Origin: Bacteroidaceae bacterium
GTDB lineage: Bacteria; Bacteroidota; Bacteroidia; Bacteroidales; Bacteroidaceae
Direction of reading: 5' to 3'
Length of the DNA stretch: 48,086 bases
Assembly: GCA_017447625.1 (NCBI GenBank)
Contig: JAFSNB010000043.1
Location: forward strand, 1-48,086
Shown here in pieces: positions 3,165 through 47,862 of the stretch (positions within the stretch are counted from its first letter, which is position 1; the number at the start of each line of letters is the position of its first letter). The notes beneath the pieces were generated by a model. That model saw only the letters and a program-made list of their open reading frames with translations, did not search any database and was not told where the DNA came from. Position numbers and translations under genes: made by a program.

Positions 3165-6086
3165 ATGATCAAGAAAGAAGATGTACTGGCCAGGACTGAT
3201 GGTGGATTGCGCATAATCCTGGACTACTACCCTCAGGCTGAGGAGGTGGTGGGCACGAAGAATAAGTTCCGCATGAGGCGGAGCGAGAGGACTCCTTCGG
3301 CTACCCTTCGCCAGAAAGCGGAGACGGGTCTGTGGGTGGTTACAGATTTCGGCGATGACGGCCATGAGATGAATGCTATCGATGTGGCCATGAAGGAAGA
3401 AGGTCTTACCTTCCGAGAGGCTGTGCTGAAGCTGGCCGCCCGCTATGGCGTTTCAGATGAACTGAAGAAGGACGTGAACCGCCCCGAGATACGGGAAGAG
3501 GACGCACGGGCTGATCAGCAGGAAGGTGAACAGTTCTACGAGCTGAACGAGAGCTTCACACCGGAGGAACTGCGCCTGCTCGGTCCTCTCGTGAAGCAGG
3601 AGCACGTCGATGCGCTGCACTGGCATTCCGTGAAGTACTGGGCACGTGTCAAGAACCGCCGCGTGAAATATGAATACAGCACACCAGATTATCCTATATT
3701 CATGCGCGAATGTGTCATAGAGGAAGCTCATGGCGATGTTCCGGCCAAACGCTTCTTTAAGATATACCGGCCGCTGAACTATGACAAGGCCTTCCGCTTC
3801 ACTTACTACCCTGCAGGGGCAAAACCAAAGAAGTATGTAAATGGACTGGCTGAACTTAAAGCAGCTTGGCGCAAGTTCAATGCCGATGAGGAAGCAACCT
3901 TCCGCGAAGACCCACACAACGAAGAGAAACCGTATAAAGAGAAGAAACTACCAGAGGCCTTCATTTGCTCCGGCGAACGCGACGCACTCTGTTGCCGCTC
4001 TCTGGGCTACTGGCCGTTGTGGTTCAACTCTGAATCGTACAATGTAGATGAGTCTGAGATGCGCGAGATTCGCAAATATGTGGACGTTCTATATAACATC
4101 CCGGACATTGATGAGGCTGGAATACGGCGTGGTACAGTACTGGCTCTGAGATATAATGAGATCCACACGGTTTGGCTGCCGCAAAAGTATATGGGGCAGT
4201 TCACGGATATGCGGGGCAAAGGGTACAAAGACTTCCGCGACTGGATGGAGGCCAAAGACAACCAGGGACCCAAGGCATTCCGCCAACTGCTCAATATGGC
4301 CACGCCGGCGAAGTTCTGGGTGGAGACCGTGAACAAACGGACTAACAAGACGGACTACCACATCGATACGGTGTGCCTGCATGAGTTCCTGCGACTGAAC
4401 GGATTCCAGACGCTTCATGATGAGGATATCACTGCCACTCAATACGTGCGTATTATTGGCCACGTGGTCCGGAGGATCACGGCGAAGGACATCCGTGAGT
4501 TCATTATCTCATGGTCTGAAGGGCAGTATCTGCCGCGTGAGGTCAGGAATACCATCCTGAACAGCCCCAAGATACAAGGTCAGGCACTGGAAAGCCTGAA
4601 GGAGGTGGATCTGGACTTCCGGACGAGCACGGCTTCAAGTCAGCTGTTCTTCTTCCAAAACGAGGCAGTCCTTGTCACAGGCTCCGGAATCGAGGAAGGT
4701 GCTGCAGGCCATTATGTATGGGAGCACGACGTGCAGCCGCACCGCTTCAAGTTGCTTGATGATATGTTCTCTGTCACCAGGACAAAGGATATGGAGGGGA
4801 AGGACCACTGGGATATCGAGGTGAAGAGACCTGCAGACGGGAAAACTACGATATCAAAGCTGATGAACTATGTCATCAACTCGTCACGCATATATTGGAG
4901 GAAGGAACTGGAGACAAACTTGGAAGACATGAGTGAGGAGGATGCTGAAGCATACCGCAAGGCCCACCATTTTGATATAGCCGGTGAAGGGCTGACACCG
5001 GAAGAGATCGATGAGCAGAAGCAGAACCTCATAGCCAAGCTGTTCGTCATCGGATATATGCTGCACCGCTACAAGGCTCCCTCACGCTCATGGGCCCCCT
5101 ACTGCATGGATAATAAGGTAGGTCAGGAAGGAGAGTGCAACGGCCGCTCAGGAAAGAGCTTCTTCGTGAAGAGCGTTGCCCAGCTGATGAAGACCGTGAA
5201 ACTCTCCGGACGCGATCCGCGACTGATGGACAATCCGCATGTCTTCGATCAGGTGACAAGGCACACGGACCTGGTACGTATAGACGACTGCTCACAGTTC
5301 TTTGACGTGCGCCGCCTCTTTGACTCGATTACCGACGATATGGTAATCAATCCCAAGAATAATCAGAGCTACACCCTCAGCGCAGAGGAAAGCCCTAAGT
5401 TTGCCTTCACCACAAACTACGTTCCCGGAGAGATTGATGCATCGATGGAAGCAAGACTGCTGTTCGTGGTGTTCTCTGACTACTACCACGAAGCAGGCGA
5501 GCAGAACGACTATTCGGAGAGCCGGAGCATAAAGAGTGATTTCGGCAAGGATCTGTTCGGTGTGGAATACACAGAAGATGAGTGGAACGCCGACTTCAAC
5601 TTCCTGCTGCAGTGCTGCAGGTTCTACCTGTCACTGGTCCGCGAGAACGTGAAGCTGCAGCCGCCTATGCGCGATATCAAGCTGCGTCAGTACAAGGCTG
5701 ATATGGGCAGCTCGTTCGAGGACTGGGCGGCCACCTACTTTGCTCCTGAGGGCGGCCACCTGAACACGCTGCTTGTGCGTGAGGAGGTATTCAATGATTT
5801 CCAGGCTGCTTCAAAGAGCTACAAGTGGACGGCCAACCGATTCAGTAAGGCTCTGAGGGGCTTCGCACGCTTCAATGCTGACTGGCTCGTGATGAACCCT
5901 AAAGAGGTATGCAACAACGGCACACGCATCATTGGCAAGAACTCGGCCGGGGCAAGCAAAGAGATGATCTATTTCAAAACCATTGAGGGTGGAGTACGTC
6001 CAGATGTCGTCACCTCCAGTTCTGTGGCCAGCCCTCAAAGTAATGATGATGACTTCGATTTCGAGGATTACCTGCGGCAAACATAA
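3165..6086 (+). CDS. Primase-helicase fusion, replication protein
   Basis: 973 residues. The N-terminal ~100 residues resemble the zinc-binding domain of phage primases (TPSATLRQ, DFGDDGHEMNAIDVA) but the Cys ligands are absent. A TOPRIM-like segment is near residue 265 (FICSGERDALCC). The C-terminal part is a superfamily-3/D5-type helicase: Walker A GRSGKS at 660-665, Walker B RIDD at 705-708, then a sensor-like FAFTTNY and an arginine-finger candidate (MEARLLFV). Such fusions prime and unwind phage DNA. A terminator follows at 6132-6171 and a repeat cluster that may be the origin at 6236-6481. Confidence 0.85.
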   Translation: MIKKEDVLARTDGGLRIILDYYPQAEEVVGTKNKFRMRRSERTPSATLRQKAETGLWVVTDFGDDGHEMNAIDVAMKEEGLTFREAVLKLAARYGVSDELKKDVNRPEIREEDARADQQEGEQFYELNESFTPEELRLLGPLVKQEHVDALHWHSVKYWARVKNRRVKYEYSTPDYPIFMRECVIEEAHGDVPAKRFFKIYRPLNYDKAFRFTYYPAGAKPKKYVNGLAELKAAWRKFNADEEATFREDPHNEEKPYKEKKLPEAFICSGERDALCCRSLGYWPLWFNSESYNVDESEMREIRKYVDVLYNIPDIDEAGIRRGTVLALRYNEIHTVWLPQKYMGQFTDMRGKGYKDFRDWMEAKDNQGPKAFRQLLNMATPAKFWVETVNKRTNKTDYHIDTVCLHEFLRLNGFQTLHDEDITATQYVRIIGHVVRRITAKDIREFIISWSEGQYLPREVRNTILNSPKIQGQALESLKEVDLDFRTSTASSQLFFFQNEAVLVTGSGIEEGAAGHYVWEHDVQPHRFKLLDDMFSVTRTKDMEGKDHWDIEVKRPADGKTTISKLMNYVINSSRIYWRKELETNLEDMSEEDAEAYRKAHHFDIAGEGLTPEEIDEQKQNLIAKLFVIGYMLHRYKAPSRSWAPYCMDNKVGQEGECNGRSGKSFFVKSVAQLMKTVKLSGRDPRLMDNPHVFDQVTRHTDLVRIDDCSQFFDVRRLFDSITDDMVINPKNNQSYTLSAEESPKFAFTTNYVPGEIDASMEARLLFVVFSDYYHEAGEQNDYSESRSIKSDFGKDLFGVEYTEDEWNADFNFLLQCCRFYLSLVRENVKLQPPMRDIKLRQYKADMGSSFEDWAATYFAPEGGHLNTLLVREEVFNDFQAASKSYKWTANRFSKALRGFARFNADWLVMNPKEVCNNGTRIIGKNSAGASKEMIYFKTIEGGVRPDVVTSSSVASPQSNDDDFDFEDYLRQT

Positions 6087-6235: not shown

Positions 6236-6481
6236 TGTAACTTTGTAACTAAAAAGAAGAAGATGGGGTAAACTTTTGAAAAAGAATAAGATGGAGACGT
6301 TACATTTTCAGTTACACTTCGGGTTACACTTTTGCAGCAAAGTGTAACGGGATGATGTCCGCCTTGTGCAGCATACGTCGTTACAATTTGCATCTGCCGG
6401 AAGAATTCTGTAACGCTGTTTGCACCAGATTCTGTAGTCATTGATTTTTAATATATTAGAGATTTTGAAAGGTTTGTTACA
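6236..6481. repeat. Cluster of nine GTTACA/TGTAAC motifs, iteron-like
   Basis: GTTACA occurs at 6299, 6311, 6323, 6380 and 6476; its reverse complement occurs at 6236, 6244, 6343 and 6409. Three are exactly 12 bp apart (6299-6323), and AATTCTGTAAC occurs twice (6231-6241, 6404-6414). The stretch 6172-6554 holds no gene that I can support. A repeat cluster directly after the replication gene fits a phage origin; a regulator-binding array is the alternative. Confidence 0.55.
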
Positions 6482-6542
6482 GTTTTACACAAAATTTGTG
6501 CAAAAAACTATAGTGTTGTGGAATGATTTAAAATATATTTTG

Positions 6543-6554: not shown

Positions 6555-7169
6555 ATGAAAGAGGCTGCAAAGGACAAAAATAACAAGTATGTGGTGTGGG
6601 TGCACATGGCTCCATACGCTGCCCGCTACCTGATAGATAACTTCGGTGTGGGCGACCGCGAATGGCCGGAACTGGTGGATGTGCACCGCGATGATGCCAT
6701 CATGGCATTCCTCTCTCCACACCTGAATAAGAGCTCTCATACTTACGACCACAGGAAGAGAATCAGGATCCCACAGCAAGGGTTTCGGAAATCGAGAGTG
6801 GCAATCATCATCTCCGCCCGCAGATTCACACGAGCTGGATGGGCACTCTCGCCAACAGACGAAGCAGCACTGGCCACGCTCATCGAGAAGCGTTGCCGAG
6901 GTATGCTTCTGACTTTCCTCTCTGCACACTACATGGTCAGCGGGGATGCTGCTCAGAGCATACGGGCCTTCTACCGCTTCTTTCACCAGACGGAGGAGAG
7001 TTGGCCCTACGACTCAATCCGCAAAATATGGAACAGAAAACTGGATGTTCTACGAAAAAAGAGCATAAATGGTGTCATTGAACGACAGATTAAAGAAATA
7101 GTTTTGGCGACATTGTCCGAGAATGGGACAATATCAGAACAGGGAAAGGACGTATATGAAAACAGTTGA
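6555..7169 (+). CDS. Hypothetical protein, 204 aa
   Basis: Start at ATG 6555, right after the promoter; the open frame upstream has no signal. The protein is basic and helical with many Arg and Trp (for example SARRFTRAGWALSPTDE), and its C-terminal helices could bind DNA. No family is recognised. Its place, beside a possible origin and before the head genes, allows a replication, middle-regulator or packaging role; none is shown. It overlaps the next gene by 14 bp. Confidence 0.6.
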   Translation: MKEAAKDKNNKYVVWVHMAPYAARYLIDNFGVGDREWPELVDVHRDDAIMAFLSPHLNKSSHTYDHRKRIRIPQQGFRKSRVAIIISARRFTRAGWALSPTDEAALATLIEKRCRGMLLTFLSAHYMVSGDAAQSIRAFYRFFHQTEESWPYDSIRKIWNRKLDVLRKKSINGVIERQIKEIVLATLSENGTISEQGKDVYENS

Positions 7170-7726: not shown

Positions 7727-8830
7727 ATGAAACAGGCTATTCTCAAAATCTATTCACCCATAGACAGCTATGGATGGCAGCTGTACAGGGTGCGATCGTT
7801 CCTGAGTGAACATACAAAGGACGAAGTGGTTATTGAAGTGAACTCGCTCGGCGGCAGCGTCAACGATGCCATGTTGATTAGCAAGGAAATTGCTGATCAT
7901 GGAAACGTGACTGTACGGCTGCTTGCTTTCTGCGCTTCAGCTGTTACATGGATGGGATACGGAGCAAAGCGGGTGGAGATCGCTGACGATGCTCTGTGGC
8001 TGTGTCACCAGTCGAGTGTGCTGGTCAGCATATACTCCAGCCTGAATGCTGAAGACCTGGAACGTACCATCGAGGATCTGCAGAAGTCAAAGAAACTGGC
8101 TGAAGCTACTGACCTGATCATAGCACGCAAGTATCTGGACAAGGCAACAGCCAACGGTAAGGATACGTCTCTGGCAAAGGTCATAGATCTTATGAAGGAA
8201 GAGAAGTTCCTGACGGCACAGGAGGTGCTTGACCTCGGTCTCGTTGATGGCATCATCAAGAACGCCAAAAGCATGACGAACGAAATACGGCAGTTCGTGG
8301 TGGAGAATCATGCCACTCTGGATATGCCTGCAGTACCGGAGGATTTCCTACCTAAAGAGGAAAGCCTTGTGGAGCGAGTGAAGAACATCGTATCGGAGAT
8401 ATTCGGCGGCAAACTGCCGGAACCTCCAAAGGAACCTGAAAACAACCAACCCCAAAATCAAATTAATATGGAAAAGAAGTTTGTACTTGTCAATGCGCTG
8501 CTTGCCGTAGCCGCATTGGAAGTGAGTGACGGTAAGGTCACACTCACTGTGGATCAGATGCAGGCCATTGAGGATGCTTTGGCTCAGAAGAAGGCCGTGG
8601 AGGATGGCGTGAAGGATGCAACCGATGCCCTCGATGCCATCAGCGACAACGTGAAGGCCATCGACGGCCTGAAGAACAAGGTAATGGCCGTGAAGACGGT
8701 GCTGGACCGCACTCCTCTCGTGGCTCCCACCGCTCAGACTCCTCTGCCTAAGACCGAGGATCAGAAGAAGGCTGAGGAACTGGCTGCTTCCGCAGTCGAT
8801 GAGGTGAACCAGGAGGCTAAGAACCTTTAA
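7727..8830 (+). CDS. ClpP-type prohead protease with scaffold domain
   Basis: 367 residues from ATG 7727; an earlier in-frame codon lies upstream of the promoter. Residues ~1-190 are a ClpP/S49-like serine protease as used in prohead maturation: VNSLGGSVNDA at 38-48 forms the oxyanion strand, Ser71 in FCASAVT is the likely nucleophile and His94 in WLCHQSS the likely base. Residues ~190-247 are a linker. Residues ~248-367 are helical with little aromatic content, typical of a scaffold. It lies directly before the major capsid gene. In the cell it would cleave scaffold and capsid inside the procapsid. Confidence 0.85.
   Translation: MKQAILKIYSPIDSYGWQLYRVRSFLSEHTKDEVVIEVNSLGGSVNDAMLISKEIADHGNVTVRLLAFCASAVTWMGYGAKRVEIADDALWLCHQSSVLVSIYSSLNAEDLERTIEDLQKSKKLAEATDLIIARKYLDKATANGKDTSLAKVIDLMKEEKFLTAQEVLDLGLVDGIIKNAKSMTNEIRQFVVENHATLDMPAVPEDFLPKEESLVERVKNIVSEIFGGKLPEPPKEPENNQPQNQINMEKKFVLVNALLAVAALEVSDGKVTLTVDQMQAIEDALAQKKAVEDGVKDATDALDAISDNVKAIDGLKNKVMAVKTVLDRTPLVAPTAQTPLPKTEDQKKAEELAASAVDEVNQEAKNL
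8468..8830 (+). CDS. Nested in-frame scaffold protein
   Basis: An internal ATG at codon 248 of the protease gene is preceded by an A/T-rich leader (CAAATTAAT) like the true starts elsewhere in this genome. The nested 120-residue product (MEKKFVLVNALLAVAALE...) would be the scaffold alone, in the manner of Nu3 inside gene C of lambda. It shares frame and stop with the long product. The internal start is inferred. Confidence 0.5.
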   Translation: MEKKFVLVNALLAVAALEVSDGKVTLTVDQMQAIEDALAQKKAVEDGVKDATDALDAISDNVKAIDGLKNKVMAVKTVLDRTPLVAPTAQTPLPKTEDQKKAEELAASAVDEVNQEAKNL

Positions 8831-30304: not shown

Positions 30305-33300
30305 ATGCGTAAGAAAAGCAGTGTACTGGTAATGACCAAACCGCTGACAGTGTCGGCGGCAATATCTGTCGCAGGCAGCAGCACCAGACAGATATACGAC
30401 AACTCTACGGGCATATACAGCCCTGACCGCATAACAACGGCTACAACTCTTCAGTTCCTGATTACATATTTCGACCCGAATACAGGGACAGCAGGCAACG
30501 CAACACCGACAAGCGTGGCATGGTATGAGGAAAACCGTAATGGTGTAAGATCCATTATCACGGCCTCTAACCCAGACTACCATATCGGTAATATCAATCC
30601 ATTAGATTCCGATCCAAGTATATTGGTCATAAGGAAGAATGTTCCTGAGGGTCAGAGTGGAATGGGTATAGTCGGCGTGGCACACTACACCAACCCGAGC
30701 ACAGGAAAAAGCCAGGTGATAAAGGCCCGTACGAAGCTGACAACGGCCGTGTCTGCCGTGTCCGCCCTGAGCCTTAACATAGAACCTGCTGCAGGTGACA
30801 CTACCTACGCAGGACGCGTCTGTCTCATCAACCCTCTGCTGACGCCGCTGAACCAGGCTGAGACGAACTGGAAGCGCAAATGCCGCGTACAGCTGCGCGA
30901 CGGAACGGTGGCTCTGGCCGACGCTCACACCATCGGCAGCTCCGCCGATGCCGCACGCACCGGCAACGCCTTCTACTTCTGGTACTACCGCCTGAACGGA
31001 CAGCTGATCCGCCTGCGCGAGAACAACGACTGGTTCGAGGCTGAATACTATGCCGACGGAACAATGTCGCGCGAGGTGACGGTGAACCTCGCAAAGATCA
31101 AGGATGTGGAACTGGTCTGCAAGGCCGGGTACATCCCGTACGGCGAGCTGCAGGACTACGTAGATGGCGACGGTATCATTCAGCCGTCGAAGTGCTACCT
31201 CGGATATCTGCAGGAGTCGTTCAAGCTGCGCGTCGCCCTGCCCATAGTGCAGCGCGACGAAGTTGTCTCCCTGAGCCACCCTGTACTGGAACGCTCCGAT
31301 ATAGGCAACAGTTCCGTCAGCATCAAACGCCGTCTGCTGCTTACATGCGGCGGCAGCGTGGTGAACGACCTGGCTCTTACTGGCCCCTCTCAGTCCACGA
31401 CGGTCTTTGATAGCCTCTTTGACGTTACGTGGTATGCCGTATATAACGGCGACAGCGTGGCCATCGGTACCGGAGAGTTTCTTGTCATCAACGGGGCAGA
31501 GCTGCTGGCCTACCTCCGTACTCTGGACAACACCATTACAGCAGCCACCTTGAAGGGAATAAACTTCGAGGTGGAGTATGAGCCGAAATACCCGCTCCTC
31601 AGCGGAAACAACTACGTGGAGGGATATACCCAGGGAAGCTCCGACATCGTTCCGGTGAAGAAGATCGGAAACAGGGAATGGCTCAACAACCTGGACTTTT
31701 TCCTGCTCGATACCACGGACAATACGGGTGAAGACACGGAACCGCTGCTGCTGCGCCGCAACAACCTGCTGCGCTTTGCAGGCGGCGGCTGGGCTCCGGT
31801 CGTCCAGATATCCTCGGCGCAGGCTGCAGATGCCAACCTGCAGCTGTTCAGACAGTCACCGACCGGCGGCTATTATGAATACTGCGGAGCCGGTGAATAT
31901 GATCCTGAGGGGTATGTCGATAACGTGCTAAGGCCATGGTATGCAGGCACCCTGTCCGAATGGAAGTCTCCGCAGCTGTACAAGTCAGACGGCAACGGCG
32001 GATATGCGGAAGCGCACGCCGTGCTCCCGTGGGAAAGCACGGAGACGAAATGGACCATCGGCATCGGATACTCACAGGGCCTCTACCTCCTCGATCAGGT
32101 GCAGGGAGCCAGCGGAACCGTGTGGAAGGGACTCTTCACTGATGTCACCGAGTGGGACGGCATAGACCTCACACCATACTACCTTGCACCGACTGCAATA
32201 AGCCCGTGCCCTGTGGCCACCATCACGGAGGGCGGCAAGCACAAGACCCGCAACCGCTTCTTCCTGACACAGGGAGAGACGAACAGTGCAGGCATGGCCG
32301 GAATGAATGACGTCAGCCAGATGTTTCACCAAAGTGGACGCACGTATCCGCGCACTCAAGACGTGGAGGCCGTGGTCAATATGCAATATGCCAGAAACAA
32401 CAACGCCAACGTCAAAAGTCCAGTTCCGTTCGCTGAAGGCGGTTACCATGCCAAAAACGTGTTCATCACGGCGCAGGAACTGCTCTACTCACGCAAGAAC
32501 CCGTTCCGTGCCTCGCAGTTCGGCAGTGGCATAAACAGCAATGACGACTGCAATTCACTGTCCACATGGCGGCAGAACGGCGGCGTGCGTGCGAAGCTGC
32601 AGAGTGCCGGCAGCTTCTCGTACTACAAATGGGCTGATAACACTCCATTCTACCATAATGCCAGCGGCGGCCGTCAGAACTTCACGAGGACCATGAACCA
32701 GTATGCGCCAAAGGAGCAGTGCATGGAGAGCCAGATGGCTGCAAGCTTCGCTGCTGAGTTCGGCATCACAGCTACGACGGACGTGTCTTCGCCCGTGTAT
32801 TTCGAGATGTATGGCGGAAAGTACTATTACATGAATGTCAGCGATGCGAAGACCTTAGCTCAGGGATACATGAACGCCCGTGTCTATAAGGAACTGACAG
32901 AGACAATCAACGCATGGGACGCAAGCGGTGGTGCCGTGCAGTATGATGTGGAGGTGGTTCTGCGCATGAGTCTGTTCGGCGGTGCCAACCTTTGCGGTGA
33001 CGTGTATGAGTACTGTCAGGGCGGCGCAGAATGTATAGGAACCTGTCTGGTCAGGCAGTCAACATCGAAAGAAGGGAACCGCTATGATGCATATATCATT
33101 ACGGACCAGCGCCGCTGGCTCTACGATACGACGATAGCTCTTGGCACGGGCTCAGCAATGATTGAGAACAGTGAGTATGCACTGAGTTTCGGGCCGTTCA
33201 CGCAGGTAGGGGACGGCAATGCCAAGAAACGCCAGAGCTATACACCCGTAAAGACGGAGAATGGCGGTGATATGTCTTCCTGGGAATGTTTCTACGGCTA

Positions 33301-33478
33301 CACAAGGAACGAATGGGGCGATGTCATAAACAACAGGTGGCGTGTCGCTCTGCGTTTTCGTGGTTATGCGCACAGTACTTACAGTTCTCCTCGCACTTGG
33401 TCTGCGTCCTTTGCTGCCTCCTACACGTATGCGAGTTCTGCGGGGTCTGCCCAGGCTCTTCTCAGGAAGCGCAGCTAA
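30305..33478 (+). CDS. DGR target: large fibre-like protein with variable C-terminus
   Basis: 1057 residues. The N-terminal ~450 residues are beta-rich, Ig-like. From ~600 the sequence has the C-type-lectin/formylglycine-enzyme-like look used by DGR targets (ITDQRRWLYDT, SWECFYGYTRNEWGD). Residues 1015-1050 are the variable repeat. There the template Asn codons are replaced: Tyr1021, His1023, Thr1031, Ser1033, Ser1035, Phe1036, Tyr1042, Ser1044 and Ser1045. The scaffold residues between them are unchanged. The role is inferred as receptor binding at the tail tip, diversified by the adjacent RT. Confidence 0.85.
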   Translation: MRKKSSVLVMTKPLTVSAAISVAGSSTRQIYDNSTGIYSPDRITTATTLQFLITYFDPNTGTAGNATPTSVAWYEENRNGVRSIITASNPDYHIGNINPLDSDPSILVIRKNVPEGQSGMGIVGVAHYTNPSTGKSQVIKARTKLTTAVSAVSALSLNIEPAAGDTTYAGRVCLINPLLTPLNQAETNWKRKCRVQLRDGTVALADAHTIGSSADAARTGNAFYFWYYRLNGQLIRLRENNDWFEAEYYADGTMSREVTVNLAKIKDVELVCKAGYIPYGELQDYVDGDGIIQPSKCYLGYLQESFKLRVALPIVQRDEVVSLSHPVLERSDIGNSSVSIKRRLLLTCGGSVVNDLALTGPSQSTTVFDSLFDVTWYAVYNGDSVAIGTGEFLVINGAELLAYLRTLDNTITAATLKGINFEVEYEPKYPLLSGNNYVEGYTQGSSDIVPVKKIGNREWLNNLDFFLLDTTDNTGEDTEPLLLRRNNLLRFAGGGWAPVVQISSAQAADANLQLFRQSPTGGYYEYCGAGEYDPEGYVDNVLRPWYAGTLSEWKSPQLYKSDGNGGYAEAHAVLPWESTETKWTIGIGYSQGLYLLDQVQGASGTVWKGLFTDVTEWDGIDLTPYYLAPTAISPCPVATITEGGKHKTRNRFFLTQGETNSAGMAGMNDVSQMFHQSGRTYPRTQDVEAVVNMQYARNNNANVKSPVPFAEGGYHAKNVFITAQELLYSRKNPFRASQFGSGINSNDDCNSLSTWRQNGGVRAKLQSAGSFSYYKWADNTPFYHNASGGRQNFTRTMNQYAPKEQCMESQMAASFAAEFGITATTDVSSPVYFEMYGGKYYYMNVSDAKTLAQGYMNARVYKELTETINAWDASGGAVQYDVEVVLRMSLFGGANLCGDVYEYCQGGAECIGTCLVRQSTSKEGNRYDAYIITDQRRWLYDTTIALGTGSAMIENSEYALSFGPFTQVGDGNAKKRQSYTPVKTENGGDMSSWECFYGYTRNEWGDVINNRWRVALRFRGYAHSTYSSPRTWSASFAASYTYASSAGSAQALLRKRS
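33347..33453 (+). repeat. DGR variable repeat (VR)
   Basis: 107 bp aligned without gaps to 33739-33845 (offset 392). The 13 differences all face adenine in the template: 7 A to T, 5 A to C, 1 A to G. The last 15 bp (33439-33453) are identical and G/C-rich, as expected of the initiation-of-mutagenic-homing region. It lies in frame at the 3' end of the target gene. Confidence 0.95.
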
Positions 33479-33488
33479 GCCGCAGGCA

Positions 33489-33523
33489 GCGACGCAGTCG
33501 CAATAAAGCCCACGCAGTGGGCT
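33489..33523. promoter_or_regulatory. Two hairpins after the VR, same apex
   Basis: GCGAC/GTCGC (33489-33501) and AGCCCAC/GTGGGCT (33507-33523) both close on the same apex ACGCAGT. DGR target recognition is known to use a hairpin shortly after the VR; these are 36 and 54 bp past it, the first beginning 11 bp after the stop codon. Confidence 0.55.
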
Positions 33524-33534
33524 GGCAAGGTGTT

Positions 33535-33571
33535 CAGAAGGTGGCGGCGGTGCAGCCGCCGCTGCCTTCTG
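33535..33571 (+). other. 16-bp hairpin between VR and TR
   Basis: Arms 33535-33550 and 33556-33571 pair at all 16 positions (two wobbles) with a TGCAG loop. It could stabilise the end of the target mRNA or assist homing. Confidence 0.65.
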
Positions 33572-33580
33572 ATGGAAAAA

Positions 33581-33602
33581 ACGGCGTCAGCCGTCGATTT
33601 TT
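33581..33602 (+). terminator. Terminator between target gene and TR
   Basis: ACGGC (33581-33585) and GCCGT (33590-33594) with a GTCA loop; A-run before and T-run after make it bidirectional. It separates the target mRNA from the TR/RT transcript. Confidence 0.7.
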
Positions 33603-33636
33603 CAGGGCATTTTTAATATAATACGAGGATTATTAT

Positions 33637-33644
33637 TACCTTTG
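33637..33644 (+). promoter_or_regulatory. Promoter of the TR/RT transcript
   Basis: TACCTTTG, a perfect -7 element, ~95 bp before the TR; no good -33 is seen. Transcription from ~33651 would give the template RNA and the RT mRNA. Confidence 0.6.
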
Positions 33645-33738
33645 CCGTCGAAATCCCCATGGCGTCCTGACAAGCCCGGCACTGGGACCGCGGCCAATGA
33701 AACAGGAGACAGGGGTTGAAAGATGGACGTGGCCATCG

Positions 33739-33845
33739 GCTCTGCGTTTTCGTGGTAATGCGAACAGTACTTACAGTTCTCCTCGCAATTGGAATGCGAA
33801 CAATGCTGCCTCCTACACGAATGCGAATAATGCGGGGTCTGCCCA
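33739..33845 (+). repeat. DGR template repeat (TR)
   Basis: 107-bp template with 25 adenines, 18 of them in nine AAT/AAC codons when read in the VR frame. It encodes Asn at every variable site. It lies in a noncoding stretch between the terminator at 33581-33602 and the RT gene, and would be part of the RNA copied by the RT. Confidence 0.95.
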
Positions 33846-33971
33846 TGCTTGGAAAAGTTACACTGCATGGCCATGTCCAGCCCGGAAGTGGCGAAGATAC
33901 AAGACCTAAAGGGTGGCGGCGGCCTCGTGGCCGTGACTGGTAGGCGCCCTATGCCTAAGCCTGGAAAGAGC

Positions 33972-35375
33972 ATGTACATCACCGAACAGCATATCAGGGA
34001 TGCCGTTTTCGAGACCTTCCGCGGCCGGCAGCAGACAAAGCCGGTGCTGGACTTCAAGGCCGGCTTGGGGATGAACATACGGCAGATACACGCAGCCGTG
34101 TGCGATGGCAGCTACCGCGAGATGCTGTGCTACTACCAGAAGGAGGTCGAAAACAAGAACGGGAAGGTGAGGGCCATCGACGCCCCGCTGCTGAAGGCGC
34201 TCATCATTGAGCATGTGTGGTTGGTAGTACTCAGGCCGATCTATGACAGGGTGAACCCCGGCGTGGCACGTAACTGCCTGCCAGAACATGGCATCACAGC
34301 TAAAAGGCGGGAGTTCTCAGTCCTGAAGGAGGCCAAGCGCCTGTTCTACGACCTGCGACACCTGCACTGGCTGGTGGACGTGGATCAGCGACAGTGCTAC
34401 CAGCGTGTGACTGTCAAGGCCTACCGCCGAGGCATGAAGTACATGCGGGCAAAGGTAATGACCTTGAAGGATGTGCCGCCGTTATGGCGGGAGTATGGCT
34501 TCTGGCACTGGCTCATTGATTTCGGCGAAGCCGTCAGCTTCGTGGACGGGCACCTGCCCATCGGCACACCCACCAGCCCCTACGTCCATCAAATCGTCAT
34601 GCTCAGCTTCGACTACTGGCTCTGCGAGAACTATGATTGGCGCATCAGGTATGCCGACAACGTGTTCATCGCCCTGCCCACCAAGGAGGAAGCGCATCAG
34701 GCACTGTGGCGCGTGCGGCAGTTCTGGTGGTACGAGCAGGGCATCAGGGCCAAGCGGCAGACAGCGCGCATCGTGGCCATCGACGACAAAGGGGTGGACA
34801 TCTGCGGCTACCGCCTCTACCGGTTCCCGGGCAAAAAGGCAACAGACCACAATAAGGGGCTGACCCTCATCCGCAGATCTACGCTTCAGCGTGCACGGAA
34901 GGCTGAGAATGACCGCAGCTGGGCAAGCTACTTCGGGCTGATGCAGCACGCCGACACCTACCGGATAATGCAACAAATTGAAAACGATATGAAACTGTCA
35001 CAACTGACTGCGAAAATCCGCATCGACCGCGAGATGGACGCCAAGAATATCCCGATGCAGAATGTCCCTTCCCTGCAGACGCTTACTCTCTATAAGTATG
35101 AGATACGCCAGAGCAAGGGAGAGGACAACTGGATAAAGTGCCTCATTGGTACACCTGAGGTGAACAAGGAGACAGGGGAACCTACGGGCAAGACTCTTGC
35201 ATATGAGTTCCACGGGAATTATCAGGGCATCATACGCTGGATCCGCGAACTGGAGAAACTGTTCCCGGGCAAAGAGTTCCTGCCCATCGAGGACGCACGC
35301 ATCGTCAACGAGTGCGGCTATATCTTCGAGGGCAGCACGAACCAACTCAGATACATTGAGGAGGGTGAGATATGA
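33972..35375 (+). CDS. DGR reverse transcriptase
   Basis: 467 residues from ATG 33972; ATGs at 33867, 33873 and 33951 are open alternatives but closer to the TR. RT motifs in order: KVRAIDAP (65-72), HGITA (106-110), motif A Asp138 in VDVDQRQCY, motif B LPIGTPTSP (195-203), motif C YADN (227-230), GVDICGY (274-280) and the thumb ASYFGLMQHADTY (318-330). Motif C has Asn where Asp is usual. Residues ~350-467 are an extra alpha/beta domain beyond the normal DGR RT length. It copies TR RNA with errors at A into cDNA that replaces the VR. Its stop overlaps the next tail gene (ATGA). Confidence 0.85.
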   Translation: MYITEQHIRDAVFETFRGRQQTKPVLDFKAGLGMNIRQIHAAVCDGSYREMLCYYQKEVENKNGKVRAIDAPLLKALIIEHVWLVVLRPIYDRVNPGVARNCLPEHGITAKRREFSVLKEAKRLFYDLRHLHWLVDVDQRQCYQRVTVKAYRRGMKYMRAKVMTLKDVPPLWREYGFWHWLIDFGEAVSFVDGHLPIGTPTSPYVHQIVMLSFDYWLCENYDWRIRYADNVFIALPTKEEAHQALWRVRQFWWYEQGIRAKRQTARIVAIDDKGVDICGYRLYRFPGKKATDHNKGLTLIRRSTLQRARKAENDRSWASYFGLMQHADTYRIMQQIENDMKLSQLTAKIRIDREMDAKNIPMQNVPSLQTLTLYKYEIRQSKGEDNWIKCLIGTPEVNKETGEPTGKTLAYEFHGNYQGIIRWIRELEKLFPGKEFLPIEDARIVNECGYIFEGSTNQLRYIEEGEI

Positions 35376-38809: not shown

Positions 38810-38815
38810 ACCGAA

Positions 38816-38892
38816 TTTATGCTCTTCGGCATCCTGAATGAAACATTTTTCCCTTTTTTCTTGCATATATCACCGACAATCCCGTACTTCGT
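38816..38892 (+). promoter_or_regulatory. Duplicated promoter leader, copy 1
   Basis: 38816-38865 matches 39576-39625 at 47 of 50 bases. It ends with the -33 region (TTTTTTCTTGCA); TTG 38861-38863 is followed after 21 bp by TACTTCGT (38885-38892), a weak -7. ATG 38908 lies 15 bp on. Confidence 0.6.
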
Positions 38893-39165: not shown

Positions 39166-39574
39166 GGGCTGGAGTCAGACTATAACGGGACCGGCCGTGC
39201 GCCGCATCATAACCAAGTGTCAGGTGGAAGGCCTCTATCAGCGCACGATGGACGCCGAGACGTGTGTGGAGTGTCTGGCACTGTGGGACACTGGCTCTGA
39301 AGGGACCGTGGTGTCTGAACGCATCGTGAAGGAACTGGACTTGGAACCATACGGGAAAAGCTTGATCGGCCATCTCAACGGGCGGAGCACATCGGTGGAC
39401 TACTTGGTGGAACTTATCTTACCCTCTGGCCAGCGGAGCGGGCTGCTTCGCGTGAATTCCGGCACCATCCCTTCTGAAGTTGACGTCATCATAGGCATGG
39501 ACGTTATCAGCAGAGGGGATTTCCAGCTGCTTCAGAAGGACGGGGGTATGTTTTTCTCTTTTAATCTTTCATGA
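39158..39574 (+). CDS. Retropepsin-like aspartic protease
   Basis: 138 residues. The single aspartic-protease motif is Asp44-Thr-Gly-Ser in LALWDTGSEGTVVS, followed by the flap-like region and IIGMDVISRGDFQL near 110-121, the second hallmark of retropepsins. One motif per chain means an active dimer. Bacterial members are rare and mostly of unknown substrate. Phage cargo, processing of a virion protein and interference with a host protein are all open. Confidence 0.75.
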   Translation: MNKGWSQTITGPAVRRIITKCQVEGLYQRTMDAETCVECLALWDTGSEGTVVSERIVKELDLEPYGKSLIGHLNGRSTSVDYLVELILPSGQRSGLLRVNSGTIPSEVDVIIGMDVISRGDFQLLQKDGGMFFSFNLS

Positions 39575-39575
39575 T

Positions 39576-39651
39576 TTTATGTTCTTCGGCATCCTGAATG
39601 AAACTTTTTCCCCTTTTTTCTTGCACACCTCGGAGATTATCCCCACCTTTG
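39576..39651 (+). promoter_or_regulatory. Duplicated promoter leader, copy 2
   Basis: Second copy of the 50-bp leader (39576-39625). TTG 39621-39623, a 20-bp spacer and CACCTTTG (39644-39651) form a near-consensus promoter for the 39847 gene. Confidence 0.6.
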
Positions 39652-40979: not shown

Positions 40980-43900
40980 ATGGCAAGAACCAACAACAAA
41001 GACGTCCACCGCGGCGTGGTACTTTACCTCGACGGCAAGGAAATCCCAAACAATGCACGCGCCATCCGCGCAGAGATGAAGAAGGTGAGGACAGAGATAG
41101 ACGGCATGACACGCGGGACGGAAGAATACAACCGGGCGGCAAAAAAAATAAAGACGTTGGATGCTGCACTACAGCATCACCGCGCACAACTGAAGTCTGT
41201 GGAGATGGCGCAGGAATCTATGTTCGCCAAAGGGAAACGATGGCTGAAGGATTACTCCGTGGCACTCATCACTACCTTCGAGGCGCTCACAGGTGTGGCC
41301 ATGCAGCTCAACAAGTTCCGCAAGATGGCGGCCGAACAGGAGGACGCTGCCGCCAACCTGAAGGCCCTCACCGGACTGGATGATGACAACATAGCCTGGC
41401 TGAAGCAGCAGGCCGAGACGCTCTCCACCACCATGGAGGCCTCCGGACTGCGCGTGCGCAAGTCGGTCACCGAGATCCTGGAGGCATACATGCTCGTGGG
41501 CTCGAAAAAACCGGAGCTGCTGAAGGACAAGGAGGCGCTGAACGCCGTCACCATCGAGGCCATGCGACTGGCCGAGGCAGCGAAGATGGAGCTGAAGGAT
41601 GCCGTGGCAGGCGTGACGCTGGCCATGAACCAGTATGGCGCCAGCGCCGAGGAGGCAGCGCGCTACGTCAACGTGCTGGCTGCCGGTTCGAAGTTCGGTG
41701 CCGTGGGCGTGGCCACGCAGACGGAATCCATCGTCAAGGCGGGTGTGGCGGCCAACATGGCCAAGGTACCTATCGAGCAGCTGGTGGGCGTACTGGAGAC
41801 ACTGGGCGAACGTGGCATCGAGGGACAGATCGCCGGCACGCAGCTGAAGACGTTCTTCCTGAAGCTGGAGGCCGGGGCCGAGGACACACGCCCGTCGGTG
41901 GTGGGCCTGCAGCAGGCGCTGGAGACGCTGGCAGCCAAAAACCTCAGCGTGACGGAGCTCACCAAGATGTTCGGGCTGGAGAGCATCAGCACCGCACAGG
42001 CGCTCATCAGCTCTGCAGACAAGGTGAAGTACTACACCGATGCCGTCACCGGCACGAACACAGCCGTGGAGCAGGCCGCCATCAACAGCGACACCACAGC
42101 AGCACGCATGGCCCAGGTGCGCAACCAGATCAACCTCACCGGGCAGGAACTGGCCAAGACGCTGGCTCCCATACTCAATAAGACAGTGGGATGGACGCGC
42201 AAGTTTGTCATGATACTGCCGGGACTGATTGACTGGATAAAGAAATGGGGACTGGAAATACTGGTGCTCGCTGCAGCTTATACTACATACGCGTACGGAG
42301 CACGTATGGCAGATGCCGTGACGAAAGCATGGCACGCAACGGTGCTCTTCTTCACTACCGGAATTGCCAAGATGCGGGCTGCTGTACAGCTGACTACACT
42401 GGCCATCAACTTCAACAGGAAGGCAATGGTGCAGATGGGGCTGCAGATGCGATCAATGAATACGCTGAGCAAACTATTCGTGGCCAGTCAGGCACTGGTG
42501 AGGGCTGCACTGCTGGCCGTGACTGGACAGACTACAAAGGCCGCACGCGCAATGGCTGTGTTCCAGCTGGTGATGAAGAGCGTCAATCCCTGGACTGCTG
42601 CAGCCGCTGCCATTGCCGCTGTAGGTACTGCCCTGTACGTTTATTATAAACGCGGCAAAGAGGCTGTGCATGTCAATAAGGAACTCAAACAGGCTCAGGA
42701 AGATGCAGCAACAAGGTACGACGAACAGAGCACCCACATCGAGAGGCTTAACAAAACCGTGCACGATGAGACGCTGGGCTATAGGCAGCGTAACAGTGCG
42801 CTGGAAGAGCTGAAGCGTCTGGTACCGGGATATGAGGCGAGCCTGACAAAGGAAGGGAAACTCATCAACGATAACACCACTGCCATCGACAACTATCTGA
42901 AACGGCTGAAAATGGAAATAGCCCTGAAAGCTCTTGAAGAACATCTGGTGGAAAGCCAGAAGAATGAGCGCAAGGCCAGGGATAAAAGGGATGACAACGA
43001 GGCCGAAGCTGCCAGACACTACAATGCCCGCATGGATGAGCAGGAAGGAAAGAACGGTACCATGGGAAGGTTCAATCCCATCAGGTGGGTCTGGCACGCC
43101 GCAGCTGAACAGTACTATGACTTCAAGGCTGGTAATGCAAAGGATGAACTGAAGCAGGCCGAGAAGGATACCGAGGAGCTTCAGACGGAGATTGACAACG
43201 TGACCAAGCAGCTGGACGAAATCCTTAATCAGGCTGCAGGTGGCGGTAACGGCGATGGTGGCAGCGGTGGCGGTAACGGCGATGGTGGCAGCGGTGGAGG
43301 TAACGGTGATCCTGAGACCGAGTCCGAACGCCAGAAGCGCATCCGCAAGGCCATCGAGGCGGTGAACACGGAGTATGACGCACGAGCCAATGACCTGAAG
43401 CAACAGTACATCGATGGACAGATAGCCACCGAGGAGGAATACAGCCGGGAGTTGGAGGCACTGGAGATGGAACGCCTGAACCGCCAACTGGAGATTGCCG
43501 GGCTTGAACCTGAGAAACGCGAACAAATAAGGGGGAAGATACTCGATATGACCATTAAGCTCCGCGAGCAGCTGAAGCAACAGGACGAAAAGCTGAAGAA
43601 GGACACCGAAAAGGCGGCCTCCGAACGCCTGAACATTTCCCGTCAGGCCATGCAGGACGCTCTTACTCAGATGCGCCGCACTCGCATCGAGGAGGGATTG
43701 ACCGAAGATGAATATGCACAACGGGTACTGGAGATACGCCGTGCCTTCTACCGTCAGGCCCTTCAGGATCAGGAACTGTCAGACCAGGAACGCCAGAAGC
43801 TGCAGCGTGAGGCCAACGAACTGGAGATAACAGAGGAGGAGCGCAAGCAGAAGAAACTGGAAGAGCTGGCACAGAAGCAGGAATACCGCCAGAGGCAGCT

Positions 43901-44612
43901 CTTCGATGCCCTGCGCTCTGCAGGCGAGGAGATGGGAGAGGCCCTGGGCGAATGGCTTACGGATACGGAGAATACCTTCGAGGACTTTTCCAAGCAGCTG
44001 CTGAAGACCATAGTCAAGACGGTGGAGAATATCATCACAGCGGCCATAGTTCAGCGTACGGTGGAGAATATCCGGACGCTGGGATTCTGGGGCATTGCAA
44101 AAGCTGCAGGAGAAATAGCTCTCATCAAGGCTGCAGGTGCTGCTCTCAATGGCCTCGTTGAGAACTTCTACACCGGCGGCTACACAGGCAGGGGGCAATG
44201 GGACGAACCGCGCGGAGTGGTTCATGCCGGAGAGTTCGTGGCCAACAGGTATGCAGTGGCCAACAGCGCCGTACGCCCGGTACTGGATATCATTGACCAG
44301 GCACAGAGACGCGGCACCATAGCCAACCTCACAGCCGAAGACATCATAGCAGCTGCCACACCATCGCGCCCATCAGCGGCACCTACTCACTCTCCAGCTA
44401 CCGTTCCCGTAGCTTCAGCATCGGGTGCTCCCGTACGTGATCCGGAACTGACAGCTGCCATCCGACTCCTTACACGCACCACGGCACGGGCTGCAGAAGC
44501 ATACCGCGAACCTGCACAGGCATATACATTCGTCGATGGCAGGGGTGGTGTGAACGAAGCACAGGCCCTGCTCGCACGCATGAAGACAAACGCCAGCCGC
44601 AGGAATAGTTAA
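40980..44612 (+). CDS. Tail tape measure protein
   Basis: 1210 residues. N-terminal coiled coil (~30-80), then a TP901-type tape-measure core (~95-400: AAEQEDAAANLKALTGL, GVAANMAKVPIEQLVGVLETLGERGIEG, INLTGQELAKTLAPI), several hydrophobic helices (~405-560), a Gly/Asp/Asn linker near 755-775, a second long coiled coil (~785-975) and a C-terminal hydrophobic and low-complexity part. It sets tail length and leaves with the DNA. Its length would predict a tail of roughly 180 nm if the common ~0.15 nm per residue rule holds. It stands far from the other tail genes. Confidence 0.9.
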   Translation: MARTNNKDVHRGVVLYLDGKEIPNNARAIRAEMKKVRTEIDGMTRGTEEYNRAAKKIKTLDAALQHHRAQLKSVEMAQESMFAKGKRWLKDYSVALITTFEALTGVAMQLNKFRKMAAEQEDAAANLKALTGLDDDNIAWLKQQAETLSTTMEASGLRVRKSVTEILEAYMLVGSKKPELLKDKEALNAVTIEAMRLAEAAKMELKDAVAGVTLAMNQYGASAEEAARYVNVLAAGSKFGAVGVATQTESIVKAGVAANMAKVPIEQLVGVLETLGERGIEGQIAGTQLKTFFLKLEAGAEDTRPSVVGLQQALETLAAKNLSVTELTKMFGLESISTAQALISSADKVKYYTDAVTGTNTAVEQAAINSDTTAARMAQVRNQINLTGQELAKTLAPILNKTVGWTRKFVMILPGLIDWIKKWGLEILVLAAAYTTYAYGARMADAVTKAWHATVLFFTTGIAKMRAAVQLTTLAINFNRKAMVQMGLQMRSMNTLSKLFVASQALVRAALLAVTGQTTKAARAMAVFQLVMKSVNPWTAAAAAIAAVGTALYVYYKRGKEAVHVNKELKQAQEDAATRYDEQSTHIERLNKTVHDETLGYRQRNSALEELKRLVPGYEASLTKEGKLINDNTTAIDNYLKRLKMEIALKALEEHLVESQKNERKARDKRDDNEAEAARHYNARMDEQEGKNGTMGRFNPIRWVWHAAAEQYYDFKAGNAKDELKQAEKDTEELQTEIDNVTKQLDEILNQAAGGGNGDGGSGGGNGDGGSGGGNGDPETESERQKRIRKAIEAVNTEYDARANDLKQQYIDGQIATEEEYSRELEALEMERLNRQLEIAGLEPEKREQIRGKILDMTIKLREQLKQQDEKLKKDTEKAASERLNISRQAMQDALTQMRRTRIEEGLTEDEYAQRVLEIRRAFYRQALQDQELSDQERQKLQREANELEITEEERKQKKLEELAQKQEYRQRQLFDALRSAGEEMGEALGEWLTDTENTFEDFSKQLLKTIVKTVENIITAAIVQRTVENIRTLGFWGIAKAAGEIALIKAAGAALNGLVENFYTGGYTGRGQWDEPRGVVHAGEFVANRYAVANSAVRPVLDIIDQAQRRGTIANLTAEDIIAAATPSRPSAAPTHSPATVPVASASGAPVRDPELTAAIRLLTRTTARAAEAYREPAQAYTFVDGRGGVNEAQALLARMKTNASRRNS
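43237..43308 (+). repeat. 27-bp coding repeat in the tape measure gene
   Basis: Two exact and one partial 27-bp units encode GGNGDGGSG-type repeats. They form a flexible linker between the hydrophobic core and the second coiled coil. Slippage here would change the protein length in steps of nine residues. Confidence 0.8.
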
Positions 44613-46455: not shown

Positions 46456-46469
46456 GTGAGAGGCCTCAC
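46456..46469. terminator. Short hairpin between convergent genes
   Basis: GTGAG and CTCAC around AGGC lie where hub and integrase genes converge. No T-run, so weak. Confidence 0.35.
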
Positions 46470-47611
46470 AGCTTTCCCTCGTAGTTCTTCAGCTCCGGAT
46501 GCGCCGTCAGCTGCTCCTTCCTTATATACCTGTTCGTGGTCGCTATGCTGCTGTGACGCGCCTGGTCCTTTGCTACCACAAGGCCTACACGCTCCACGGT
46601 GTCCGTGATGCCCGTGTCCTTCAGGCTGTAGAACTTATAAGACTTGGGGAAACCGAGGGCCTTGCGTACCTTCGCCCAACGGTCGCGGTACTGCTTGGCC
46701 GTGCCGCGTTCTGCAGAAGGCAGGAATTCGTGACCGAAAAGATAATAGGTGGAGGGGGCGTTGAACACGCCCAGTTCCAGCATCATCTTCAGGACTACGG
46801 CCGGAAGAGTCACCTTGCCGTCCTTGTGGTTCTTTGACACCTCACGGCTGATGAACAGCGTCTGCTCCTTTACGTTGATGTCCTTCAGGCGGATGTAGGA
46901 CATTTCCTTCGGCCTGACAAGCGTATAATAGTGAACCATGCAGGCCAGAAGAAAAGGACGGTCGTTTGCCGTGAGATACGCCTGCAGCTTGGCCATGGCT
47001 GAGTCAGAGAGTGGCTTGCGCTCCTTCTCCGGCTCGCGCAGCTTCTCGATGCCAACGGTAGGATCCTTCGCTATGTAGCCGTGACCGATAAGCCAGCCAG
47101 ACAGGGACTGCAGCCAGCTCAGATAGTTGTTACGTGTGGCTGGCGAACAGCCGTGGTCGATATAGCAGTAGTCCAGATATTCCTCCACGAATACCCTGTC
47201 AAACTGGTAGGCATAAGTAAGGGGTACAGGCAGCGTCTTGTTGAAGTCATCGATGCGCTTCATGCGGCTCCTGTAGTTCTCCAGAGAGTCGATGCGCATG
47301 GCTCCGTCCTCCTGCTTCTTCTGTATGTAGGCCAGATACTTCGCAGATACGTCAGACCACAGGGCCAGACCCTTGGAACCGCTTGATTCAACCAGGGGAT
47401 TCCAGCCGCGACGGAGCTTCAGACCGATTTCGTTGCAGAAACGCAATGCCGCATCTCGCTGCTCCTTGCGGTTCTTGATATACCCGAACTTCTTCTTCAG
47501 GCGCACCAACTTCGGACACCCGGCCGCCACAGACACAGGATCCAGGACATAGTAATAAACATACGCAGATTTCGCCGTCTTCACAAAATGCGGAAGACGG
47601 AACTGCTCCAT
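46466..47611 (-). CDS. int: Tyrosine recombinase, phage integrase
   Basis: 381 residues from ATG 47611; an ATG at 47665 would add 18 residues and the frame is open up to TTG 47770 at the att core. N-terminal arm-binding and SAM-like core domains, then the catalytic domain with Arg in LVRPKEM, Lys in a beta hairpin, the Bacteroidetes variant YSLKDTGITD in place of HxLR, His in ARHSS and the nucleophile Tyr in TNRYIR. It joins attP to the tRNA-Pro 3' end. It is transcribed leftward, away from attR, and may be reached by read-through from the tRNA. Confidence 0.92.
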   Translation of the reverse strand: MEQFRLPHFVKTAKSAYVYYYVLDPVSVAAGCPKLVRLKKKFGYIKNRKEQRDAALRFCNEIGLKLRRGWNPLVESSGSKGLALWSDVSAKYLAYIQKKQEDGAMRIDSLENYRSRMKRIDDFNKTLPVPLTYAYQFDRVFVEEYLDYCYIDHGCSPATRNNYLSWLQSLSGWLIGHGYIAKDPTVGIEKLREPEKERKPLSDSAMAKLQAYLTANDRPFLLACMVHYYTLVRPKEMSYIRLKDINVKEQTLFISREVSKNHKDGKVTLPAVVLKMMLELGVFNAPSTYYLFGHEFLPSAERGTAKQYRDRWAKVRKALGFPKSYKFYSLKDTGITDTVERVGLVVAKDQARHSSIATTNRYIRKEQLTAHPELKNYEGKL

Positions 47612-47768
47612 ACCATCATAGCTTACTCTATTACGCGCGATGGTTTTTTTGTCGGAAAGATGCATTTTTTTGCATTGTTTGCCTACCAGACAACCAACGC
47701 TGATTAATAATAGTGGACCAAATTTGTCCCGCTTATCTAACGCAAAACGCAGTATCTGATTGACTTTC

Positions 47769-47805
47769 AATCTCGTACCACGCTTGAAGTCGGAAAGAGG
47801 AGACT
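47769..47805. repeat. attR: 37-bp direct repeat
   Basis: Identical to attL at 681-717. It overlaps the last 16 nt of the intact tRNA-Pro gene and the first half of its trailer hairpin. The integrase gene starts ~100-160 bp to the left. Confidence 0.93.
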
Positions 47806-47862
47806 CGAACTCCCGACCCCTACGTCCCGAACGTAGTGCGCTACCAACTGCGCTACTTTCCG
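47790..47862 (-). tRNA. tRNA-Pro (CGG)
   Basis: 73-nt cloverleaf on the minus strand: 7-bp acceptor stem CGGAAAG/CTTTCCG, D arm GCGC/GCGC, anticodon stem CTACG/CGTAG with loop TTCGGGA (anticodon CGG), T arm with TTCGAGT, discriminator A; CCA is not encoded. The gene is rebuilt intact by the phage copy of its 3' end. Confidence 0.93.

Follow-up and report, generated by a model that had tools for sequence, protein, structure and literature searches.

The 48,086-base stretch of DNA analysed here (the window, which is the entire contig 34 of a Bacteroidaceae bacterium assembly, JAFSNB010000043.1 in GCA_017447625.1) carries a cassette made of a tail-protein gene with a variable repeat (VR) near its end, a template repeat (TR) and a reverse transcriptase (RT) gene. 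We consider it highly probable (roughly 0.9) that this cassette is a diversity-generating retroelement (DGR) of a divergent lineage, in which a folded RNA would present the TR and an adenine-mutagenic RT would rewrite the VR of the tail protein. Comparison with related loci establishes, at the level of sequence, the TR/VR pair, the adenine specificity of the family, a conserved RNA pairing together with hairpins, the homology of the RTs, and change of the VR over an unchanged TR between relatives whose RT carries the catalytic motif YADN. The original prediction had described a complete DGR; we retain a DGR in function but not a standard cassette, as the contig holds no match to Avd, the RT carries GTPTSP and YADN, and structured RNA surrounds the TR.

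The mechanism that we propose, which supposes that the window copy is active at present, would begin with transcription of the region between target and RT as an RNA bound by the RT. A 5' element (helices P1-P3), a stem closing over the TR (P4) and a 3' hairpin (P5) would present the TR to the enzyme, which would copy it from a primed start into complementary DNA (cDNA), misincorporating opposite adenines. At the end of the tail-protein gene, this cDNA would then take the place of the VR, with the invariant VR 3' end and the GCA-loop hairpins just downstream as guides, so that phages of one population would come to differ in their tail tips.

The repeat pair and the second aspartate of motif C

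The VR (33347-33453) and the TR (33739-33845), both on the plus strand, are ungapped copies at an offset of 392 bases that differ at 13 positions, each at a TR adenine (seven A>T, five A>C and one A>G, TR base first), exactly as the original prediction had counted. Adenine accounts for 25 of the 107 TR bases, and a chance repeat was rejected as the source of the pair, the probability that 13 of 13 mismatches fall on adenines being 2.9e-10. The match continues four bases past the 107 bp with one mismatch at a base other than adenine, at 33454, and a repeat search of the window likewise reports these two copies, as a family of 111 nt (87%). The VR lies inside coding sequence, in the last 43 codons of a 1057-aa open reading frame (ORF), and the TR lies outside it, between this target ORF and the RT; read in the VR frame, all 25 TR adenines of the window occupy first or second codon positions, as do 346 of 359 across 14 loci. 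No third copy was found when 33700-33900 was searched against its own assembly (46 contigs, 73% complete), these two sites being the only ones at E <= 0.001. The G+C-rich 3' end of the VR (33439-33457, plus strand) is identical to the TR over 33439-33453, has its one non-adenine mismatch at 33454 and then diverges, and its relatives have a comparable layout; it probably acts as the initiation of mutagenic homing (IMH) site. Elsewhere in the window, a 53-bp direct repeat (38813-38865 and 39573-39625, 92% identity) was considered as a second VR/TR pair and rejected, its four mismatches (two T>A, one T>C and one C>T) not being adenine-specific.

Relatives of the RT came from bacterial genome contigs (seven) and from viral contigs (two, then 11 with those two among them, then 32, of which 21 were new); their loci are denoted by L numbers. 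The same order of TR, VR and RT recurs among them with adenine-specific mismatches, one having been deposited with VR, TR and IMH annotated, which bears out the DGR reading of the original prediction. The second catalytic aspartate of motif C is replaced by asparagine (YADN) in 18 of 33 RTs, the window included, and the other 15 have YADD. This comparison left out L015 (frameshift), L083 and L089 (stops), L085 and L091-L094; its L080 and L081 rows are identical and L090 was entered as a piece. The motif-A aspartate and the first motif-C aspartate are invariant in 18 aligned RTs. Placed on an RT tree that was built without the column concerned, the YADN/YADD label requires at least four changes, three of them forced by starred branches (bootstrap 4-5). 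The GDN motif of negative-strand RNA virus polymerases is a natural parallel to YADN.

We tallied TR/VR differences in 29 loci (15 YADN, 12 YADD, L083 and L094), dropping the last six bases of each repeat and leaving out L002 and L003 (contigs of L014/L015), L085 (a near-copy of L084) and L023; no repeat pair was found in L007, L008, L009, L018, L080, L082, L089 and L091-L093. The cleanest signature belongs to the 15 YADN loci, where 194 of 196 differences lie at TR adenines and 14 of the 15 RT frames are open as far as read; the frameshifted L015 itself has 14 of 14 differences at adenines. The corresponding count for the 12 YADD loci is 139 of 152, seven of the 13 exceptions being in the eroded L013. 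All nine differences of L083, whose RT is broken, and nine of 13 in L094, which has an RT remnant, are at TR adenines. As a side observation that we do not use as support, A>G accounts for 19 of 194 TR-adenine changes in loci with asparagine at family RT residue 230 (YADN) and for 32 of 139 in those with aspartate (YADD), with p 0.0012 when kinship is ignored.

Two YADN loci, L087 and L088, share 95% identity across 8.8 kb; their TRs are the same and their VRs differ at 14 positions, all of them TR adenines, which means that one or both VRs have been rewritten since the two split. L084 and L086 (YADN) likewise have no TR differences and 17 VR differences, 15 of them at TR adenines; both repeats are identical in L084 and L085. 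The remaining pairs differ in both repeats: L021/L022 at 13 TR and 29 VR positions (18 at adenines), L012/L013 at 10 and 22 (19 at adenines), and L012/L075 at five and 26 (20 at adenines). Because YADN loci keep the adenine signature and because VRs have changed over unchanged TRs in YADN pairs, we see good evidence that YADN enzymes work. Nature provides both YADN and YADD enzymes within this family, so the need for the third catalytic carboxylate and its effect on adenine mutagenesis become directly testable.

Some loci are arranged differently. L023 has its repeat pair (6372-6488 and 6708-6824) 3' of the RT, with differences that fit adenines on the minus strand. L007 (4777-4995) and L018 (4578-4899) keep TR and RT, their VR and 5' RNA element were not found, and similarity stops near the TR 5' end in both; L007 has an additional 50-bp repeat (4687-4736 and 8760-8809).

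RNA pairing around the template repeat and hairpins after the variable repeat

The TR and its flanks were aligned in 15 loci and the alignment was folded without guidance, which gave helices P1 (6 bp), P2 (5 bp), P3 (5 bp), P4 (12 bp) and P5 (3 bp); two small helices inside the TR had little support and were left out of the model. On the plus strand of the window, P1-P3 form a 5' element (33651-33723), the two strands of P4 (33724-33735, pairing with 33868-33879) flank the TR and close over it, and P5 is a hairpin (GCC-CGGAAGT-GGC, 33880-33892) after which a conserved tail runs to 33905; the helices P1-P5 are backed by covariation. Across the 31 pairs and 15 loci, 90.5% of 463 cells are paired, as compared to 60.6% in shuffled and at most 45.0% in slid alignments, and 29 of the 31 pairs show double changes (144 double-change cells vs 42.4 shuffled and at most 36 slid). 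P4 alone has 88.3% of its cells paired, and nine subclade representatives that are 50-73% identical still have 258 of 278 cells paired (92.8%), with double changes in 28 of the 31 pairs. Conservation is also good in the P3 loop (CAxxGGGA), in GGTTGAAA, which follows P1, and in letters resembling GAAnATATAAGAC downstream of P5.

R1, a covariance model built for the 5' element, matches the window at 33652-33728 with 77.9 bits, the window being in its training set; its matches cover all 15 loci of that set as well as two duplicates, or 17 of 28 sources. Of 21 loci fetched later, 17 were matched, some of which (L075, L074) are closely related to loci of the training set; nine scored 68 bits or more and eight 26-32 bits, the latter mostly from one RT subclade (L076-L081 and L090; L083 is not in the tree). 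The four later loci without a match are L082 and L089, which begin near a contig end, and L092 and L093, in which 34 and 30 RT residues were matched. The R1 match stands directly upstream of the TR in the 14 matched loci of the later set that also yielded a full TR/VR pair; where it is full-length it ends 9-10 bases before the TR in eight of the later loci and 4 bases before it in L090. The spacer from P5 to the RT varies in length among loci. Of the 13 later loci in which both TR and VR are complete, 11 reach scores of 29-34 for P4-like pairing, while the other two, L090 and L094, score 18-19. When flanks were swapped among the first 15 loci, 13 scored above the swapped 95th percentile (22) and L017 and L020 did not; the same control for the 13 later loci (95th percentile 33 vs own scores of 18-34) was spoiled by near relatives and is given no weight.

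A known Rfam RNA was rejected as the identity of this RNA, since the three matches of the Rfam search were all far below gathering scores. R1 matched one of 295 genomes of the order Bacteroidales, its own, and found nothing above 12 bits in five canonical DGR loci with their flanks; a pattern scan of viral contigs gave one stretch, on the contig of L024. What emerges is a secondary structure, based on covariation, of the template RNA of a DGR. As the alignment supplies 15 natural variants and another 13 loci, a few of them broken, have complete TR/VR pairs, recognition of the template could be studied in detail in a system other than that of Bordetella. A further conserved noncoding stretch between P5 and the RT (33911-33945, GGGTGGCGGC..GTGACnGGTA) is common to the window and L014-L017 and is perhaps a further RNA domain.

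Three hairpins follow the VR on the plus strand of the window: GCGAC-GCA-GTCGC (33489-33501), AGCCCAC-GCA-GTGGGCT (33507-33523) and one with a 7-bp stem and a TGCAG loop (33544-33562). The 130 bases 3' of the VR hold one to five perfect hairpins per locus with stems of at least 5 bp, and the loop is GCA in 24 of 39 hairpins of the first 15 loci and in 23 of 36 of the 13 later ones. A GCA-loop hairpin is present after the VR in 13 of 15 loci (the exceptions being L019 and L020) and in 13 of 13, as compared to 0.001 per locus in base shuffles and none 3' of the TR in 28 loci. The hairpin after the VR of the Bordetella phage BPP-1 is described in a part of Guo 2011 (PMC3240598) as having 7-10 bp and a GRNA 4-nt loop and as needed for efficient homing. 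A GRNA loop was not found among the three window hairpins (loops GCA, GCA and TGCAG). The shared position after the VR suggests that the GCA hairpins may serve homing as the BPP-1 hairpin does, even though loop and multiplicity differ.

Descent of the reverse transcriptase, known elements and alternatives

The RT gene (33972-35375, plus strand) encodes 467 aa with the motifs DQRQCY, LPIGTPTSP and RYADN and a family-specific C-terminal region. The mechanical ORF opens at 33849; the ATG at 33972 is most likely the start, since L002 and L003 carry stop codons upstream of the matching ATG. All readable relatives share DQRxCY in motif A and P(I/V)GTP(T/S)SP, except L083 (DERQCY, TSS) and L089 (DQCKCY, TSS), both with stops; GTP(T/S)SP, which is GTPTSP in the window and GTPSSP in L082 and L084-L088, replaces the GxxxSQ of canonical DGR RTs. 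The window RT matches PF00078 (RVT_1) with 33.6 bits over residues 62-262, and most of its family (15 of 18 RTs) attain E 5e-7 against this profile, which is about 30 bits. The window RT also matches PHROG 1423, the label that the SQ-type RT of phage vir215 carries as well. An AlphaFold2 model has a mean predicted local distance difference test score (pLDDT) of 82.3 and a predicted template modelling score of 0.66, with blocks of pLDDT >=77 across residues 1-330 and a C-terminal region (357-442) predicted to be beta-rich; six pieces of that region searched against Pfam gave one match (E 0.056), not a credible one. Among 101 genomes of its own family, the RT family profile matched one, its own.

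The 19 family RTs of the tree group together as a clade (100/100), their stem is long (2.2), and in the best tree they are sister to, not within, a clade of 19 SQ-type canonical DGR RTs (86/93), the two being joined at 97/86 with respect to eight retron-type and six group II-type RTs. The SQ-type set holds 15 RTs from named phages and four classed as DGR by motif, and the group II and retron labels were also given by motif; L046 and L055 (near-copies) and L033, L043 and L044 (odd RTs) were left out, and the motif rule yielded no RT for six of the 29 loci L027-L055. The original prediction had named an RT placed outside the DGR clade as a finding that would speak against it, and this is nearly what we see, in a tree that the approximately unbiased (AU) test leaves undecided; the adenine pattern still makes the cassette a DGR in function. 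Neither motif of the canonical clade was found in the window RT, which has GTPTSP for GxxxSQ and YADN for YxDD, the latter change being shared by 17 more of the 33 RTs. The family profile has the Bordetella DGR RT 8ub7 as its nearest solved RT (1.3e-11), followed by a group II RT (1e-9). Because of this match and the 97/86 union, the RT family is likely related to DGR RTs.

The closest described element is that of crAssE-Sib (OR575929), an epsilon crAss-like phage published as having an atypical DGR with GxxxSP (Babkin et al. 2024, PMC11054128); the sections of that article available to us report VR, TR, IMH and a C-type lectin-like target, and in those sections no RNA structure is given. The crAssE-Sib record itself marks VR, TR and IMH. 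Its RT is the best match of the window RT in phage records (40.8% identical over 93%), its order is target-TR-RT, its 111-nt repeats differ mostly at TR adenines, its own DNA holds the P1-P5 RNA and GCA hairpins, and its target shares the motif PKEQCMESQMAASFA. Unlike the window, it has YADD and a 151-kb crAss-like genome, as compared to a 48-kb contig with an integrase gene. On RT homology, GxxxSP and the same RNA and hairpins, we assign the window DGR to the crAssE-Sib-type lineage. According to the same partial source, myDGR misses the crAssE-Sib DGR, for which its authors blame GxxxSP, and GxxxSP stands alongside "diversity-generating" also in an excerpt of PMC12386605. BPP-1 (NC_005357), for which adenine mutagenesis is described in the part of PMC3240598 already cited, likewise has TR/VR, an RT, a phage tail target and a hairpin after the VR; it differs in having GSLTSQ and YMDD and an Avd gene, with the TR between Avd and RT, and R1 reaches just 11.1 bits (E 0.74) in its locus. 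The DGRs of p00 "hankyphage", LMMB and cr56_1 have RTs in the canonical clade and no R1 match above 12 bits, with GxxxSQ in p00 and LMMB, none read by the motif scan in cr56_1, and YxDD in all three. What we take these three to share with the window is a setting in Bacteroidales phages and a target that is, or is presumed to be, a tail protein.

A number of observations weigh against the reading of the cassette as a working DGR with a template RNA. Most RTs are expected to be crippled by loss of the second motif-C aspartate, which is generally regarded as essential, so that YADN is itself such a point. RTs are broken or partial in several relatives (a frameshift in L015, one stop each in L083 and L089, L091 and L094 partial), L008 has a cut N-terminus, L007 and L018 are without VR and 5' element, and differences outside adenines are frequent in L013 (7 of 19) and L094 (4 of 13). 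R1 finds no match in L023; the window RNA folded alone is not unusual in energy (z -0.63), although its minimum-energy fold nonetheless has stems at the places of P1-P4. A six-frame search of the genome with the Avd model NF033474 gave no match on the window contig and elsewhere two sub-cut-off matches (G000:C1:29845-30129 and C18:28063-28377), of a kind found in six of 14 control genomes too; to our knowledge Avd is not universal among DGRs. The AU test rejected none of the alternatives to the best tree, with p of 0.226 for family plus retron, 0.22 for family plus group II, 0.425 for family plus Bacteroidetes-type DGR RTs and 0.107 for family plus BPP-1. Finally, the evidence from the window itself is one sequence.

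These points feed three alternatives. If YADN or another decay had switched the RT off, the VR differences would record past activity, as the broken relatives might suggest; we regard such a relic as very improbable, given that the N/D label changes at least four times on the RT tree, that YADN loci combine mostly open RT frames with an almost exclusively adenine-directed signature, and that L087 and L088 have diverged at 14 TR-adenine sites under a shared TR. The folded RNA might also be an attenuator or ribosome-site regulator of RT expression rather than a template scaffold, a role that would suit its position upstream of the RT start, with P5 and the conserved tail near the RT. We find this improbable, as the strands of P4 lie on both sides of the TR with most cells paired, and as the 5' element keeps its distance to the TR in eight loci (a shorter one in L090) while the P5-RT spacer varies. 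A separate recruitment of a group II intron- or retron-like RT to mutagenic homing would account for GxxxSP, which the sampled group II-type and most retron-type RTs have, for the long stem and for the unrejected unions in the AU test; the best tree, the nearest solved RT and the same adenine specificity speak for DGR descent instead, and we consider such a recruitment unlikely.

A DGR of a divergent lineage thus remains our preferred reading. More tentatively, and at somewhat less than even odds, the family may be a second deep DGR lineage outside the RT clade that surveys and DGR finders build on, free of Avd, with an RNA-clamped template and an RT that would be proficient and adenine-mutagenic with two of three catalytic aspartates, the third switching repeatedly between Asp and Asn. 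In the portion of Roux 2021 (PMC8144416) that we cite, there is one DGR RT clade, RT groups outside it are judged unlikely DGRs, and outside sequences are kept if >=75% of differences are at A. The first filter of that survey would pass many family RTs, because 15 of 18 reach E 5e-7 with RVT_1, and DGR catalogues may or may not undercount the GxxxSP lineage. No report of a YADN DGR RT was found in a limited search of open-licence literature, by which absence from print is not shown, and a limited, weak literature search by title found no paper describing such a TR RNA. YADN, the covarying template RNA and the GCA hairpins are thus features that we have not seen described within that limited search, in a kind of DGR that is itself known.

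Target protein and phage setting

The target gene (30305-33478, plus strand, 1057 aa) matches PHROG 3267 "tail protein" over residues 25-168 (E 2.4e-11), in agreement with the tail protein that had been suspected from the sequence. Neither Pfam (0 of 22 family members matched) nor the PDB (a single match, E 0.13, not credible) identified the C-terminal 420 residues, which align as one family (22 rows). It is plausible that the target binds a receptor; the target homologue of crAssE-Sib is modelled as C-type lectin-like in the excerpted text of Babkin et al. (PMC11054128). Across 27 loci the VR begins 39-50 codons ahead of the target ORF end, and the ORFs have 642-1153 aa, bar three loci truncated by a contig end.

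The window is most likely a temperate tailed phage, given the presence of a tyrosine recombinase-like gene (46466-47770), a tRNA-Pro (cgg) and a TP901-type tape measure gene (40980-44612). The tRNA-Pro (47789-47862) adjoins the recombinase-like gene at the contig end, and the segment that they span (46466-47862) looks like an integration site.

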